A stretch of DNA of 64,000 nt. Source: Microbacterium sp. CSI-V (GTDB lineage: Bacteria > Actinomycetota > Actinomycetes > Actinomycetales > Microbacteriaceae). This document shows, piece by piece, positions 24,551-56,575 of this stretch. The position numbers and the translations under genes are program-made. The notes beneath the pieces were generated by a model. The model saw nothing but the letters and a program-made list of their open reading frames with translations. It ran no database searches and was not told the DNA's origin. The stretch covers positions 992,001 through 1,056,000 of the forward strand of contig NZ_MTQM01000009.1 in the NCBI RefSeq assembly GCF_001984105.1, in the 5' to 3' direction. Every line of letters starts with the position of its first letter. Position 1 is the stretch's first letter.

Positions 24551-24616
24551 CGCGTGAGTCGCCAGGATTCGTCGCCTGAGGGCCATCCTGAGCGACACAT
24601 CCTGGCGACTCACGCG
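24551..24616. repeat. 66-base inverted repeat, family 1, left copy
   Basis: Arms 24551-24575 and 24592-24616 (25 bases each, two mismatches) enclose a 16-base loop. The core is GAGTCGCCAGGAT/ATCCTGGCGACTC. It starts directly after the esterase stop. No T tract follows. The second copy is at 26177-26242, on the other side of the ProP-like gene. Confidence 0.9.
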
Positions 24617-24685: not shown

Positions 24686-26167
24686 ATGAGCCAGCTTCCC
24701 CCCGCGGCATCCGGAACCCCTCGACTCGAGGTCGACGACGTCATCGTCGTCGACAAGAAGCGTGTGCGCACCGCCATCGGCGGCACCGTCGTCGGCAACT
24801 TCATGGAGTGGTTCGACTTCGGCATCTACGGCTACCTGGCCGTGACGTTGGCCGTTGTCTTCACCTCCGACCTGCCCGAGCCGTGGGGCCTGCTGGTGAC
24901 GCTGCTGGGCTTCGCGATCTCCTTCCTCGTCCGCCCGTTCGGCGGGTTCGTGCTCGGCCCGCTCGGCGACCGCATCGGGCGGCAGAAGGTGCTGTTCCTG
25001 ACGATGGCGATGATGGCCACGGCCACCGCGCTCATCGGCATCCTGCCCACCTCCTCCGCGATCGGGCTGTGGGCGATCGTGCCGCTGTACCTGCTGAAGA
25101 TGGTCCAGGGCTTCTCGACCGGCGGCGAGTACGCCGGCGCGACGACCTACGTCTCGGAGTTCTCGCCGGATCGCACACGCGGCTTCTGGTCGTCCTGGCT
25201 GGACGTGGGCTCGTACGTCGGTTTCGCCGCGGGCGCGTCGGCGGTCGCCGTGACGACCGCGATCACCACCGCGGTCTCAGGCGAGAACGCGATGGTCGAC
25301 TACGGCTGGCGGATCCCGTTCCTGCTGGCGATCCCCCTCGGGATCGTCGCGATCTACTTCCGCCTGCGCATCCCCGAGACGCCGTCGTTCGAGCAGACGC
25401 ACGCCGCCGAGGCCGCGCAGGAGACCGGTTCGGACGATCCGATGGCGCGTCAGGGCCTGCGGGGCATCGTCCGCCATCACTGGCGCGCGCTGCTCATCGG
25501 CATCGCGCTGGTCGCCGCGACCAACACCGCCGGCTACGCGCTCACGAGCTACATGCCCACGTACCTCGAGAAGGAGGTGGGCATCTCCAACCTCGGCGCG
25601 GCGGTGGCCACGGTTCCCGTCCTGCTGGTGATGTCGGCGACCCTCCCCCTCATCGGCAGGCTCAGCGACCGGATCGGACGGAAGCCCGTCTACGCGATCG
25701 CGGCCGGTTCGGCGATCGTGCTGCTCGTCCCCGCGTTCCTCATCATGCAGATCGGCGAGCTGTGGGCCGTGATGATCGCCCTGACCCTCGCGGCGGTGCC
25801 GGTGGCGTTCTACGTCGCGATCTCGGCATCCGCTCTGCCCGCCCTCTTCCCCACCGCGTCGCGCTTCGGAGCGATGGCCGTGGCGTACAACATCGCGGTG
25901 TCCCTGTTCGGCGGCACGACGCCGCTGTTCAGCCAGGCGCTCATCGAGTGGACGGGCAACACGCTCATGCCCGCGTTCTACATCATGTTCTTCGCCGCGT
26001 TGGGCCTGGTGGCGCTGTTCGCGATGCGCGAGACCGCGCGTCGACCGCTGCTGGGCTCGGTGCCCGCCGTCGAGACGCCCGCCGAGGCGGAGGCGGTCGT
26101 GGCCCGTCAGGACGAGGACCCGCTCATTGACACCTCGACGATGCCGCTCGCCATCCGCCGCGGCTGA
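24686..26167 (+). CDS. proP: MHS-family MFS transporter, ProP-like proton symporter
   Basis: A 493-residue MFS protein of the metabolite:H+ symporter group with 12 helices. It is close to E. coli ProP in GNFMEWFDFGIYGYLA, LVRPFGGFVLGPLGDRIGRQ, KMVQGFSTGGEYAGA, DYGWRIPFLLAIPLGI and SALPALFPTASRFGAMAVAY, and so probably imports proline, betaine or ectoine under osmotic stress. The C-terminal coiled coil of E. coli ProP, which sets the osmotic threshold, is missing. GTGGAGGT precedes the ATG. The gene is bracketed by two near-identical hairpins. Confidence 0.88.
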   Translation: MSQLPPAASGTPRLEVDDVIVVDKKRVRTAIGGTVVGNFMEWFDFGIYGYLAVTLAVVFTSDLPEPWGLLVTLLGFAISFLVRPFGGFVLGPLGDRIGRQKVLFLTMAMMATATALIGILPTSSAIGLWAIVPLYLLKMVQGFSTGGEYAGATTYVSEFSPDRTRGFWSSWLDVGSYVGFAAGASAVAVTTAITTAVSGENAMVDYGWRIPFLLAIPLGIVAIYFRLRIPETPSFEQTHAAEAAQETGSDDPMARQGLRGIVRHHWRALLIGIALVAATNTAGYALTSYMPTYLEKEVGISNLGAAVATVPVLLVMSATLPLIGRLSDRIGRKPVYAIAAGSAIVLLVPAFLIMQIGELWAVMIALTLAAVPVAFYVAISASALPALFPTASRFGAMAVAYNIAVSLFGGTTPLFSQALIEWTGNTLMPAFYIMFFAALGLVALFAMRETARRPLLGSVPAVETPAEAEAVVARQDEDPLIDTSTMPLAIRRG

Positions 26168-26176
26168 TCCGCTCTC

Positions 26177-26242
26177 CGCGCGAGTCGCCAGGAATCGTCG
26201 CCCGCGGGGCGCCCGAAGCGACAGATCCTGGCGACTCGCGCG
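26177..26242. repeat. 66-base inverted repeat, family 1, right copy
   Basis: Arms 26177-26201 and 26218-26242 (25 bases, three mismatches) around a 16-base loop. Same arm sequence as the copy at 24551, except that the outer pair changed on both arms (TGAGTC/GACTCA there, CGAGTC/GACTCG here), keeping the pairing. It lies between the ends of two converging genes. Confidence 0.9.
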
Positions 26243-43042: not shown

Positions 43043-43112
43043 ATCCACGCGGCCCCGGCGTCCGCGGCCGCCCGCGGCGGCCGCCCGCGCTTCCGCGCCC
43101 GCGCGGCCCGAG

Positions 43113-43182
43113 TTCACGTGAAATGACCGAACGCACCCGCTAAATCGCGTCGCGCCGTGCGCACTCGACCAGTTCACGTGAT
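43113..43182. repeat. 70-base hairpin, TTCACGTGA family, left copy
   Basis: Two TTCACGTGA motifs exactly 60 bases apart (43113 and 43173). Inverted arms TCACGTGAAATGACCGA (43114-43130) and TCGACCAGTTCACGTGA (43165-43181) match at 14 of 17 positions. The right arm contains the stop codon of the nuclease gene at 43174. No T tract. Confidence 0.85.
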
Positions 43183-44190
43183 CTCACCGAAAGACGGACG
43201 CGAGGTCGACGGCACGGGAACGCCGAACGCCTGGAGTCTCGCCCGCAGCGCGTCGGGAGTGGCGATGTCGCGCCACCCGCCGCGGGTCACACGCCACTGC
43301 GTGACTCCCCGGATCCAGTCTTCGCGGCGCTTCTCCTCTAGGAGGACTCGCGAAAGCTCGCGACCGTTCCGCAGGCCGTCGTCGATGTATTTGGTCTCAC
43401 CGTCGAACTCCCAGAAGGTCTTCTGCTCGGGAAGGGCGATGTCGACGAAGTAGTCGCGGCCGTTCGGCCCCGCGACGGGAACCTGCAACTCGAAGACACG
43501 GAAACCCAGGCGGGCCAATTGCACACGGGTCAGGCTCTCTCCCGGCAGCTCGGCGCGCCCATCGGCGAACGACAGGACGTACTGCGCGCGAGCGACCCCT
43601 CGGCGACCCGGCGATGTGGCGGCCCTCTCGAGGAGGCGGTCACGCCACCGTCGCTGCAACTCCGAAGAGTACTCGCGTCCATTCACCGACTCACGACGCG
43701 CGGCGGCATCGGCACAGCTCACCCCCAACTCCACGGAACAGGTGCGAGCGACGTCGAACACGGTGCGGTCGAGGGACGTGCAGCGGATACCCCCGATCTC
43801 GACGACGTCCTGATCGGCGAGATGATCGGCATGACGACGAAGGCCCTGCCGCCCTGACATCCGCACGCCCGGGATCGTCGTCGTCTCCACGGGCCACTCC
43901 CCCGCTTCCGGCTGCGCGAGGCCGTGCAGCACAGCGGCGGAGCGATGCGAGATCACCGCCGACGAGCCCGTCATCAATCCGTGTGCCGCAACCACGCGGA
44001 CCAGGTGGCGCCCTTCCGGCCACAGGTCCCTGAACGCGTCCGCGAACACGTAGGCGTCGCGCTGAAGGCGCAGGAGTGCGCCGTCGGCCAGGGCCCCGCG
44101 GAGCGCGGCAGTCGACCCGTCGATGTCCAGCAGCTGTTGCCGCGAGCGAACGATCGCGCGCGCGTCCTCGATCCCCAACCGGCGTGGCAT
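43174..44190 (-). CDS. DUF559/AbiEi-like endonuclease-domain protein (copy 1)
   Basis: A 338-residue protein. The N-terminal half has a winged-helix-like AbiEi-type region (ALLRLQRDAYVFAD, SSAVISHRSAAVLHGLA, DRTVFDVARTCS). The C-terminus has a Vsr-like PD-(D/E)XK core: Asp in YFVDIALPEQK and Glu/Asp in FWEFDGETKY (residues about 250-263). Family members are annotated as type IV toxin-antitoxin AbiEi-domain or DUF559 endonuclease-domain proteins; their substrates are unknown. The last codons (EIT-stop) lie within the hairpin. The same architecture recurs at 55490. No strong ribosome site precedes the ATG. Confidence 0.8.
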   Translation of the reverse strand: MPRRLGIEDARAIVRSRQQLLDIDGSTAALRGALADGALLRLQRDAYVFADAFRDLWPEGRHLVRVVAAHGLMTGSSAVISHRSAAVLHGLAQPEAGEWPVETTTIPGVRMSGRQGLRRHADHLADQDVVEIGGIRCTSLDRTVFDVARTCSVELGVSCADAAARRESVNGREYSSELQRRWRDRLLERAATSPGRRGVARAQYVLSFADGRAELPGESLTRVQLARLGFRVFELQVPVAGPNGRDYFVDIALPEQKTFWEFDGETKYIDDGLRNGRELSRVLLEEKRREDWIRGVTQWRVTRGGWRDIATPDALRARLQAFGVPVPSTSRPSFGEIT

Positions 44191-44295
44191 CCCCCACTGT
44201 GGTCACAGTCCCCGCTCTCCCGCCGCACTTCGCGTCCGCGTTGTGGACGGTTCCGCCTGGGGAGGAGCCGTGACTCCCCCTGCCCGAGGTTCCAT

Positions 44296-44365
44296 TTCAC
44301 GTGAAGTGGCTGAATGTGCGCGGCATGACGGACCACGACGTGTGCCGTCAGCCAGATCACGTGAA
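44296..44365. repeat. 70-base hairpin, TTCACGTGA family, right copy
   Basis: Arms TTCACGTGAAGTGGCTGA (44296-44313) and TCAGCCAGATCACGTGAA (44348-44365) pair at 16 of 18 positions around 34 bases that hold a further CGGCA/TGCCG stem. The two CACGTG cores are again exactly 60 bases apart. It lies in the divergent gap between the DUF559 gene and the YqaJ-like gene, where a terminator would not be expected. Confidence 0.85.
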
Positions 44366-44471
44366 GTGGCGCCCCCGGCGCGCAGCAGCGACCGCCGCCC
44401 ACCCCACCGACCCGCAGGACACACCGCCGCGCCGAACGGCCCGGGCGCCCGACCGGGTTAGTCTCGAACGC

Positions 44472-45146
44472 ATGTCCCCCGAGCTCGTCGCCTCCCGCAG
44501 CGCCGACCTCGAGTCGCGGATCGTCGCCGATTCCCGCGACCGTGTCGCGTGGATCCGGGCGCGCTCGCGCGGCATCACCGCGACCGATGTCGCGACGCTC
44601 ACCAGCACGAATGCGATCGCCCGGGCGGCGGATGCCAAGCTCCTGGGCTCGAACTTCTCGGGCAACGCCTACACGGCGCACGGCCGTCGCCGCGAGCCCG
44701 AGATCGCGGCCTGGGTGGCCGCGACGCACGGCATCCAGCCCTCTTCGGCGCTGTATCACGCGGTCGTGGAGCGGCGGCATCTGGCTACCCCAGACGGCGT
44801 GGTCGTCGACGGGGAGGGACGCATCGTCCTCGCCGAGATCAAGACGACCAACAAGGCGTGGCGCTCGATCCCCCGCACTTACCTGCGGCAGGTGTGGTGG
44901 CAGCAGCACGTCCTGGGCGCCGAGCGCACGCTGGTCGCGTGGGAACAGCACGACGGTTTCGTCCCGGTCGGCGACGAGCCCCGCTGCCAGTGGGTGGATC
45001 GCGACGAGAAGGAGATCGCGTCCCTCGTCCGCCTCGCCACCTCCCTCATCGACGAGCTCTACCGGCGCACGACAGTCGGACGCGTCCCCGCTCCTCGCCC
45101 GGAGCCGACGGAGAGGTACCGCGCGCTCGCGCTCCTCGAGGGATAG
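44472..45146 (+). CDS. YqaJ-family (lambda exonuclease-like) nuclease
   Basis: A 224-residue protein with the YqaJ/lambda-exonuclease core: RSRGITATDVATLTS, GRRREPEIAAWV, LATPDGVVVDGEG and VLAEIKTTNKAWRSIP, giving the Asp and Glu-x-Lys catalytic set, and YLRQVWWQQHVLGAE. Phage members degrade one DNA strand for recombination; chromosomal single copies in actinobacteria have no defined role. No recombinase or SSB gene is adjacent. The ATG at 44472 lacks a strong ribosome site. It is divergent from the DUF559 cassette. Confidence 0.85.
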   Translation: MSPELVASRSADLESRIVADSRDRVAWIRARSRGITATDVATLTSTNAIARAADAKLLGSNFSGNAYTAHGRRREPEIAAWVAATHGIQPSSALYHAVVERRHLATPDGVVVDGEGRIVLAEIKTTNKAWRSIPRTYLRQVWWQQHVLGAERTLVAWEQHDGFVPVGDEPRCQWVDRDEKEIASLVRLATSLIDELYRRTTVGRVPAPRPEPTERYRALALLEG

Positions 45147-45190
45147 TTGACCAGAATCAACCACTTCGCGTATAGTTGATCCTCGTCAAC
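45142..45190. promoter_or_regulatory. MFS-marR promoter with two MarR-type operators
   Basis: Promoter TTGACC (45145-45150), 18 bases, TATAGT (45169-45174). Operator 1, TAGTTGA-N6-TCAACCA (45142-45161, one mismatch), covers the -35; operator 2, TAGTTGA-N6-TCAACTA (45171-45190, perfect), covers the -10. The two are 29 bases apart. The arrangement predicts tight repression by the MarR protein encoded at the end of the same operon. Confidence 0.85.
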
Positions 45191-45242
45191 TAACGCGCCG
45201 ACGTCGTCGCGGCATCCTTCTTCCTCCCCTGGAGAGTTCCGC

Positions 45243-55285: not shown

Positions 55286-55354
55286 CGCGATGTCCCGGCA
55301 TCCCCGCTCCCCCACCGGCCGCGCTCGCGCCCGGCGTCCGGCTGAGGCGGGTCA

Positions 55355-55423
55355 CGCATAAACACGGTTCGCGCTCATAAACACGCACGGAGCGTGTTTC
55401 TACGCGCGAGAAGCGTTTATGCG
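55355..55423. repeat. 69-base hairpin, CATAAACACG family, left copy
   Basis: Arms 55355-55386 and 55392-55423 (32 bases, seven mismatches, five-base loop). Each arm has two copies of the CATAAACACG motif, 18-19 bases apart, some degenerate. It separates the rplK promoter region from the DUF559 gene. Confidence 0.88.
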
Positions 55424-55489: not shown

Positions 55490-56449
55490 ATGGATGCCGT
55501 CCCCCGCTCGCTGCGCGCGTCGCCGACCCCCCTGCTCCTCGTGTCGGATACGCCGCGGTCGGGTCCGCCGCCCTGGCGTGACGAGTCGCTGTGGCGAGTC
55601 CGGGCCGGCGTGTACGTCATTCGCGCGGAGTGGGAAGCGCTACCGCCCTGGGAGCGCTACCTCGTTCGCGTCCACGCCTTCGCGCTAGCGCGACCCGATG
55701 CCGTCTTCTCGCACGAAGCCGCGGCGTCACTCCTCGGGCTTCCCGTCTTCGGGCATCCCCGCACGATTCACATCTTCGACGCGCGCCGTTCTCGGTCGGC
55801 GAGATACGGCGATGTCACGGTGCACACGAGCGCCGACAGGCGATCGCAGCACGAGGTCGCCGGCATCCGCATCTCCGCCGTCGAGGACGTGGCGATCGAC
55901 CTCGCACGCGTGTTGCCGCCCGCCTTGGGCCTTGCTGTGGCGGACGCCGCGCTGCGCGCCTTCGACCTCGACGGGGAGCTTCTGCTCGATCGCGCCGCGA
56001 CACAACGAAACGAGTTCGGGCGACGACGTCTTCGATGGGTGCTGTCGCATGCCACCCCTCTGGCAGAGTCTCCTGGCGAGTCCATCAGCCGAGCCGTCAT
56101 CGAATGGTGCGGGTTCCCCACCCCCGAGCTCCAGCGCAACCACCGGGTCGAGGGGCGCATCTTCCGGTCGGACTTCTGCTGGCCGGAGCGGAAGATCCTC
56201 GGCGAGTCGGACGGCTGGCTCAAGTACGGCGCCGACGACCCCGCCGCCGCAGCCGCAGCGGTCCGCGCGGAGAAGTATCGCGAAGACGCGCTTCGGCGGC
56301 AGGGGTGGCGCATCGCTCGGTGGGACTACGCGGGAGCACTCGGAGTGGCGGGGCTCCGCAACGCGCTCACCGCTGCGGGCCTGCGCCCCGAGCGCCACCC
56401 CGAGACCGCCGCCTTGTCCTCGGTGGGGCGCAACGCGCGCTCGACCTGA
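55490..56449 (+). CDS. DUF559/AbiEi-like endonuclease-domain protein (copy 2)
   Basis: A 319-residue protein with the same layout as the gene at 43174 but little overall identity. The N-terminal region has SLWRVRAGVYVIRAEWEALP, FSHEAAASLLGLPVFGHPRT and AVEDVAIDLARVLPP. The C-terminal Vsr-like PD-(D/E)XK core has the Asp in FRSDFCWPERK and Glu/Asp in LGESDGWLKY (residues about 228-241). The distance from core to end is the same in both copies (93 residues). It is read against nusG and rplK and bounded by matching hairpins. The start is uncertain, since no ribosome site precedes the ATG. Confidence 0.8.
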   Translation: MDAVPRSLRASPTPLLLVSDTPRSGPPPWRDESLWRVRAGVYVIRAEWEALPPWERYLVRVHAFALARPDAVFSHEAAASLLGLPVFGHPRTIHIFDARRSRSARYGDVTVHTSADRRSQHEVAGIRISAVEDVAIDLARVLPPALGLAVADAALRAFDLDGELLLDRAATQRNEFGRRRLRWVLSHATPLAESPGESISRAVIEWCGFPTPELQRNHRVEGRIFRSDFCWPERKILGESDGWLKYGADDPAAAAAAVRAEKYREDALRRQGWRIARWDYAGALGVAGLRNALTAAGLRPERHPETAALSSVGRNARST

Positions 56450-56452
56450 CAT

Positions 56453-56519
56453 GCATAAACACGATCGACGCCCATAAACACGGGGGCAGCGTGTTTATAG
56501 GCGTCGATCGTGTTTATGC
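56453..56519. repeat. 67-base hairpin, CATAAACACG family, right copy
   Basis: Arms 56453-56482 and 56490-56519 (30 bases, one mismatch) with a seven-base loop. Each arm has CATAAACACG twice, 18 bases apart. It begins three bases after the DUF559 stop. No T tract follows. Confidence 0.92.
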
Positions 56520-56575
56520 GTGGGGTGCCAGGCGCAACGAGGGCGGCGGATACCGCAGCGGCCGCGCGAAACTCG

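Follow-up and report, generated by a model that had tools for sequence, protein, structure and literature searches.

In Microbacterium sp. CSI-V a gene encoding a putative nuclease (gene A) lies between two inverted-repeat elements, and the same arrangement recurs beyond this genome: the actinobacterial gene is often found between two hairpins which co-vary with the encoded protein, and the copies of these hairpins scattered over the genome look like an undescribed kind of self-spreading DNA. REPIN/RAYT systems, in which doublets of REP sequences are accompanied by REP-associated tyrosine transposases, are known palindromic repeats with a dedicated enzyme, and we hypothesize, with a probability of roughly 0.6, that the gene A system is a comparable one run by an unrelated enzyme, a sequence-specific nuclease the cuts of which would lead to copying or conversion of its own element. 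The open-access literature searched yielded no prior description of the pairing between gene and hairpin.

Gene A, its elements and its paralogues

The window, that is, the whole stretch of 64,000 nucleotides that was analysed, contains gene A on the reverse strand at 43174-44190. The gene encodes 338 aa, in which an AbiEi-like DNA-binding module (residues ~11-210) is predicted to precede a Vsr/I-Bth0305I-like nuclease (~214-326). The first-pass annotation had described this gene as adjoining rplJ and as bracketed by two elements with inverted arms, in each of which two TCACGTGA-centred motifs stand at a distance of exactly 60 bp; the observation was confirmed, coordinates and counts being correct. 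The left element, at the 3' end of the gene (43105-43184), and the right element, at its 5' end (44288-44373), measure ~80 bp each and have a roughly palindromic frame. Motif copies are located at 43113-43122 and 43173-43182 in the former and at 44296-44305 and 44356-44365 in the latter, so that the starts (43113 and 43173, 44296 and 44356) keep the 60-bp spacing in both, and the arms, of 30-32 nt, display a complementarity of 73-78%. As had also been noted, the last two codons and the stop codon of gene A lie inside the left element, where ATC ACG TGA was read directly in the second motif copy, and the right element occupies a divergent gap, between the start of gene A at 44190 and the next gene at 44474, a location ill-suited to a terminator. 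For this 224-aa neighbor no Pfam match was found; rplJ, on the other side of gene A, was named by eye. When one mismatch at most is allowed, TTCACGTGAA matches four times in the window, always at gene A, against an expectation of 0.77, and four matches were reached in 2 of 100 shuffles. At 45150-45200 of the window, short repeated sequences of the TTGAC/GTCAA type precede an MFS-like gene, with a MarR-like gene behind (both named by eye), and possibly constitute an operator.

The genome of CSI-V harbors five homologues, gene A included, and four of them (A, B, L004 and L002) are bracketed on both sides, by four different element families. Gene B (55490-56449, forward strand; the start was picked by homology, the longest ORF beginning at 55394) displays 37% identity with protein A over residues 35-324 of the latter, and its hairpins are found at 55354-55423 on the left and at 56451-56521 on the right. 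These belong to the CATAAACACG family, which, at 55.4-56.5 kb, is indeed a different sequence from the gene A hairpin, as the earlier claim that the two are unrelated had it. Relatives of gene B are associated with hairpins of the CATAAACxC type at 68-100% identity and with CGATAAACGCC and CGACAAACGC at lower identity; an exception is the homologue of genome G055, which at 63% identity retains three CATAAAC motifs, and neither the G044 homologue nor the second homologue of G020 shows a shared element. A third family is represented in the window by two solitary hairpins (24551-24616 and 26177-26242), the cognate paralogue, L004, being located outside the window at position 1075746 of contig 5 of this genome. 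The fifth homologue (L005, contig 5 at 5645) is a 179-aa frame without flanking hairpins, and is perhaps a truncated relic.

Two further observations concern the L004 family. An ORF at 24686-26167 is bracketed by the two solitary hairpins of the window, and in a copy at L321:3854-3922 three stem pairs are changed on both arms at once, as if by copying from arm to arm.

Protein A

An AlphaFold2 model of protein A, built with 48 homologues (mean pLDDT 92.5, pTM 0.90), was compared with solved structures, and on this model the protein combines an AbiEi-like DNA-binding part with a Vsr/I-Bth0305I-like nuclease. Foldseek returned AbiEi (6y8q, E 7.9e-5) and Rv2827c (1zel, E 5.2e-4), but Vsr only with E 0.43. 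In a second structural comparison, residues 11-210 were aligned with AbiEi over 171 residues (Z 8.0, rmsd 7.5), and the C-terminal part with the catalytic domain of I-Bth0305I (3r3p; Z 9.6, rmsd 3.0, 94 residues), with Vsr (1vsr; Z 8.8, rmsd 2.8, 102 residues) and with TnsA (Z 6.9); two chains of the Toxoplasma mitoribosome score Z 9.4-9.7 in the same list as I-Bth0305I and Vsr, and consequently the Z scores alone are not decisive for the nuclease fold. Among distant homologues, E218, E261, G264, K267, Y268 and R289 are invariant in 66 of 66 sequences, and D250 and D263 are kept in 65. The retention of these residues suggests that catalysis is probably needed.

An AbiEi-like module plus a Vsr-like nuclease describes the protein better than the plain label DUF559, which the gene had been given at first sight. 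The Pfam DUF559 model (PF04480) has no match to protein A and matches, weakly (E up to 0.1), 2 of the 48 homologues; the AbiEi models of PADLOC match 48/48 and Pfam AbiEi_4 25/48. No Y1 transposase is present among the 11 Pfam families matched by the 48 members. NCBIfam gave single scattered matches only on these members, one of them, to a "transposase" model in 1/48 (E 0.0096), being taken as chance. Searches of single proteins against Pfam and NCBIfam returned nothing useful, and a sequence profile retrieved no relative of protein A with a solved structure.

Flanks of homologous genes

A search with protein A over 149 genomes of the genus gave a match at E <=1e-10 in 125; of 13 relatives in named genomes, 11 are from Microbacterium, two of these being MAGs, and the other two are from an Actinomycetota MAG and from Nocardioides. 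The sample taken from the genus comprised 74 loci, namely the five of CSI-V and 69 high-scoring loci from other listed genomes, and 70 of these have more than 300 bp on both flanks. When left and right flank were aligned locally, the best score exceeded 99% of shuffles in 63 of the 70 loci, the largest shuffled score being 35. Under the same threshold, outer windows passed in 0/70 cases and the flanks of the 224-aa neighbor gene in 2/28; the first and last parts of the gene itself passed in 12/70, and consequently GC-rich coding sequence can reach the threshold of the test. The elements are inverted doublets, the self-inverse score beating all 50 shuffles in 85 of 114.

Across the class, 172 of 296 genomes, belonging to 78 of 114 genera, have a match at E <=1e-20. 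Shared flanking elements were found in 55 of 62 untruncated loci outside the genus (40 of the 62 were hand-chosen from the list, and three truncated loci were left out) and in 13 of 15 family labels, families f37 and f42, with one locus each, having no shared element; altogether, none was found in 7/70 loci of the genus and 7/62 outside it. The best shared match outside the genus is inverted in 36 of the 55 positive loci and direct in 19, and some of the top scores (e.g. L274) correspond to tandem repeats rather than clean hairpins. In Nocardioides agariphilus (L172), where protein identity is 31%, the gene is found between hairpins which are 91% identical to each other. At the rplJ position the gene site is empty in five clade genomes, 568-755 bp separating the leader from the next conserved gene, mostly with another small gene in between.

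A side observation was made on the outer ends of loci L252, L253, L255, L257, L258, L259, L263, L266, L267, L270, L299 and L305, of several other families, which share a TGATCACGTTCA-like sequence; the inner parts of these loci differ and the two ends are mostly inverted.

Covariation of element and protein

Over 63 loci, protein identity is correlated with element similarity (Mantel rho 0.373; 0 of 2000 permutations as high, the largest permuted value being 0.161). An element is shared by 82% of the 11 pairs above 70% protein identity, all of which are in the same context, against 0-1% of pairs below 50%. One conserved genomic position is common to 32 of the 63 loci, and 19 element classes (single linkage) are found there. 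Among same-position pairs of 40-60% protein identity, the elements within a locus are more alike than same-side elements of different loci in 433 of 435 comparisons (medians 66 and 19), three loci (L029, L082 and L085) having been left out by hand as low-complexity; the within-locus similarity leans upward because elements were defined by left-right alignment, yet the largest shuffled score is 35. Compensatory changes in the stems are modest (5/21 and 5/22 pairs), too few to demonstrate selection on the hairpin itself as opposed to the double-stranded motif copies.

The first-pass annotation had suggested that element and gene form one unit, and that each clade would have its own hairpin sequence of the same design, to be checked on the flanks of homologous genes for shared and co-varying inverted repeats. 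The check was run and succeeded, the contrary outcome, of repeats neither shared nor co-varying, being absent: flank sharing within and outside the genus, together with covariation, supports both proposals far beyond the window.

Dispersed copies and their location

In the genome of CSI-V a longer A motif, searched with up to three mismatches, has 47 matches against 4 for the reversed control, the clearer ones occurring mostly as pairs ~51-61 bp apart at about 16 places; the gene A element is therefore also a dispersed family, a property that could not have been recognised from the window by itself. With one mismatch at most, the A-type motif is found 31 times in CSI-V and 14 times in G055 (87% complete), the only two of the 149 genomes in which protein A is present at an identity of at least 78%, and 0-3 times in each of the other 147 (reversed control, 0-1 per genome). 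As each element counts about twice, and two and three matches, respectively, stand beside the gene, these figures correspond to ~14 solitary places in CSI-V and ~7 in G055.

Two other families behave likewise. Pairs of TTGGGGCGC occur in 22 of the 149 genomes (reversed control, 5 matches in 4 genomes), and solitary pairs, gene-adjacent matches being left out, in 17 of the 34 genomes where the cognate gene is present and in 4 of the 115 where it is absent (Fisher 8.6e-10, uncorrected for relatedness and with a cut-off for the cognate gene, E <=1e-75, that was chosen after seeing the list). The exceptions are 16 of the 34 carriers, which have no exact pairs, and the four genomes with pairs that lack the gene at this cut-off, one of which (G004) contains a fragment of a homologue interrupted by two stops. 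A query with the B element gave 38-50 matches in six clade genomes, where gene B has 68-83% identity, against 12-24 in the 12 genomes at 63% or less (Fisher 5.4e-5, genomes uncorrected for relatedness and counts including matches to the rest of the query); among the matches listed, the element region itself appeared in the first six genomes and, at a single place, in G009. In three families, then, copy number follows the gene, with exceptions, all genome counts being taken without correction for relatedness.

The location of the copies was assessed by an iterated profile search for four families over 1.256 Mb of contig 5, with ORFs from a crude caller. The search returned 26 copies, 6 of A (three of relic or mixed type), 4 of B, 13 of L004-type and 3 of L002-type, and 22 of the 26 are intergenic, against 20% of non-coding sequence. 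Six copies are those beside genes A, B and L004, and 20 are solitary. One of the latter is in an ORF; the gaps that hold the others are convergent for 9, tandem for 8 (7 of these copies being closer to the 3' end of the upstream gene) and divergent for 2. Gap lengths predict 26% convergent, 48% tandem and 26% divergent, and the trends, each weak alone, have p values of 0.05 (convergent), 0.04 (tandem) and 0.08 (divergent). Solitary copies are thus mostly intergenic, and a modest lean to the 3' ends of genes is suggestive only. Genome-wide, 14 of 14 solitary A-type places are outside predicted ORFs, one touching an ORF end.

Apparent turnover at shared sites

Five of the 14 solitary A-type places of CSI-V match the flanks of the seven in G055; in two of three places compared the copy is clearly the same, and in the third (L012/L142) the flanks correspond, but the five best matches do not include the element. 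At the site of copy L017, read by eye, a hairpin is present in 12 of 13 genomes with an A homologue of at least 50% identity and in 2 of 5 without one (Fisher 0.044; G027, the gap of which was not readable, is left out). When this site and that of copy L008 are taken together, and the element is compared with 39 gene loci, the flanks of the genome's own gene give the best match in 6 of the 23 cases and one of the three best in 12, of which one (G044) is an empty gap. G055 carries a gene of the TCACGTGA type, yet intact elements of the G009 type at both sites, and CSI-V has elements of the G053/G009 type with no matching gene among its five homologues. This second motif type apparently represents relics of an earlier specificity, and from the comparison of sequences we infer that one motif type may have been replaced by another at the same site, leaving layers of relics. 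At two orthologous intergenic sites searched for clean insertion footprints the sequence is too diverged to define a target duplication, and no insertion, excision or cutting event was seen in the genomes compared.

The second motif type was also noticed beside or among the TCACGTGA type at L024:1442-1700, at L147:1200-1660 and at positions 531937, 1065026 and 1067596 of contig 5. At the orthologous L008 site, another type of simple hairpin (GAGTGTCC...GGACACTC-like) is present in G007, G073, G104, G093, G024 and G063, its sequence being similar in the six.

Discussion

According to the reading that we favor, the AbiEi-like part of protein A would recognise the four motif copies, two direct and two inverted, of its own element, and the Vsr-like part would nick or cut there. 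Repair or replication would then copy the element to other extragenic sites and replace variants at existing ones, and the copies of the genome, including the two which bracket the gene, would thereby track the changing specificity of the enzyme. Within its clade the gene would mostly stay put, the elements forming a dependent and dispersed population. Our confidence rests mainly on covariation and copy number, and the odds were consequently left unchanged when the lean to 3' ends became weaker after a recount. A broader version, which we advance tentatively and with the odds somewhat against it, is that self-propagating palindromic repeats driven by homing-endonuclease-like enzymes are widespread in Actinobacteria, and that upon a change of specificity each enzyme, by cutting elements that repair would replace with a matching copy, would convert its whole repeat population in place, relic layers being left behind.

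The chief alternative is a regulator that acts on many operators. Protein A could be an AbiEi-type autoregulator with a regulon, the pair at the gene serving autoregulation, the dispersed elements regulating other genes and the nuclease acting elsewhere. AbiEi from Streptococcus agalactiae, like Rv2827c, targets its own promoter, where it binds inverted repeats of 23 bp (PMC7319586), the AbiEi fold is predicted for the N-terminal part, and a regulator and its sites would co-vary as observed. Nevertheless, an element is also present behind the gene, copy numbers vary widely among related genomes, and the distribution of the 20 solitary copies, with 9 convergent, 8 tandem (7 of them nearer an upstream 3' end) and 2 divergent, speaks weakly against it (p 0.04-0.08), so that we regard a regulon as unlikely, even if it is the strongest of the alternatives. 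Less probable still is a single-gene transposon with hairpin ends, in which solitary copies would be solo ends or MITE-like derivatives of ordinary whole-unit transposition. The prevalence of inverted flank matches outside the genus, the near identity of some ends, as in Nocardioides, the resemblance of the predicted nuclease fold to TnsA and one element class found in 4 contexts (a number that single-linkage chaining may inflate) are what such a transposon would lead one to expect, but half of the loci compared have one position in common with 19 element classes in it, and the ends differ among those paralogues of a genome that were examined. Likewise, a whole-unit element on plasmids or phages was sought and rejected, with 0 matches among 72,556 plasmid records and one, weak, among 50,697 phage records.

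A role in defence or as a toxin-antitoxin gene, in which the nuclease would attack foreign DNA while the hairpins act as regulatory or self-recognition sites, fits the match of every member to the PADLOC AbiEi models and the strict retention of the nuclease residues; it appears quite improbable, as no adjacent DUF1814 toxin was found at gene A, where the neighbors are rplJ and the 224-aa gene, and as it would leave unexplained why dispersed copies vary in number with the gene. That the elements are ordinary transcription terminators or mRNA stem-loops, alike by chance or base composition, is hardly credible, since for all their lean to 3' ends, their strong stems and the passing of the gene-part control in 12/70 loci, left-right sharing is far above shuffles and outer-window controls, the 5' element stands in a divergent gap, covariation with the protein speaks against it as a full explanation, and a terminator-only reading is rejected on account of sequence families which follow the gene across the 149 genomes, a terminator role being possible for individual copies.

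If the cut-and-copy reading is correct, it would be a remarkable case of convergence that an unrelated enzyme does REPIN/RAYT-like work in another phylum, and a protein family present in more than half of the genomes sampled from the class would gain a role. The many pairs of protein and motif would make DNA recognition by AbiEi-like proteins directly testable. It would also offer an independent system for testing how palindromic repeats spread and persist, questions still open for repeats of the REPIN type (PMC3116915).

Several known systems share features with the one described here. In common with the AbiE type IV toxin-antitoxin system, protein A has a predicted AbiEi N-terminal fold (6y8q; Rv2827c, 1zel), and the binding of AbiEi proteins to inverted repeats of their own promoters (PMC7319586) may have a parallel in protein A; unlike in AbiE, no adjacent DUF1814 (AbiEii) toxin gene was found at gene A, which encodes a fused nuclease domain, and its repeats are also found behind the gene and across the genome. 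The predicted C-terminal fold resembles that of Vsr and of the EDxHD homing endonuclease I-Bth0305I (1vsr, 3r3p), and E218, D250, E261-x-D263 and K267 are conserved in the gene A family, among which counterparts of the EDxHD signature may lie. In contrast to these enzymes, the gene stands free between hairpins, with no intron or intein seen around it, K267, a conserved lysine, follows the E-x-D motif, and the nuclease is fused to an AbiEi-like part. GTAG- and CGTC-tagged REPs are likewise short dispersed palindromes, the latter reported without a dedicated transposase (PMC3733652, in the main text of which the words Actinobacteria and Microbacterium are absent), whereas the present elements have a dedicated enzyme and no such tag in the families read.

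The closest likeness is to REPIN/RAYT. Both consist of inverted doublets of a short palindromic motif, of about this size and extragenic, and in both the enzyme gene adjoins its own repeat and the repeat families are dispersed in the genome (PMC3116915). The bracketing of the enzyme gene by its own repeats, here in 63/70 and 55/62 loci, and dispersed extragenic copies whose abundance follows the enzyme, here with exceptions, are further points in common. The differences are that the enzyme is an AbiEi-like plus Vsr-like nuclease rather than a Y1 (HUH) tyrosine transposase, that GTAG is absent from the L004 and A consensus and, by eye, from the B and L002 copies, and that about 16 A-type places are found in the CSI-V genome against 91-323 REPINs (PMC8049555). 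On account of the enzyme and the tag we do not place the gene A system among REPIN/RAYT systems, although it appears to work in a similar manner.
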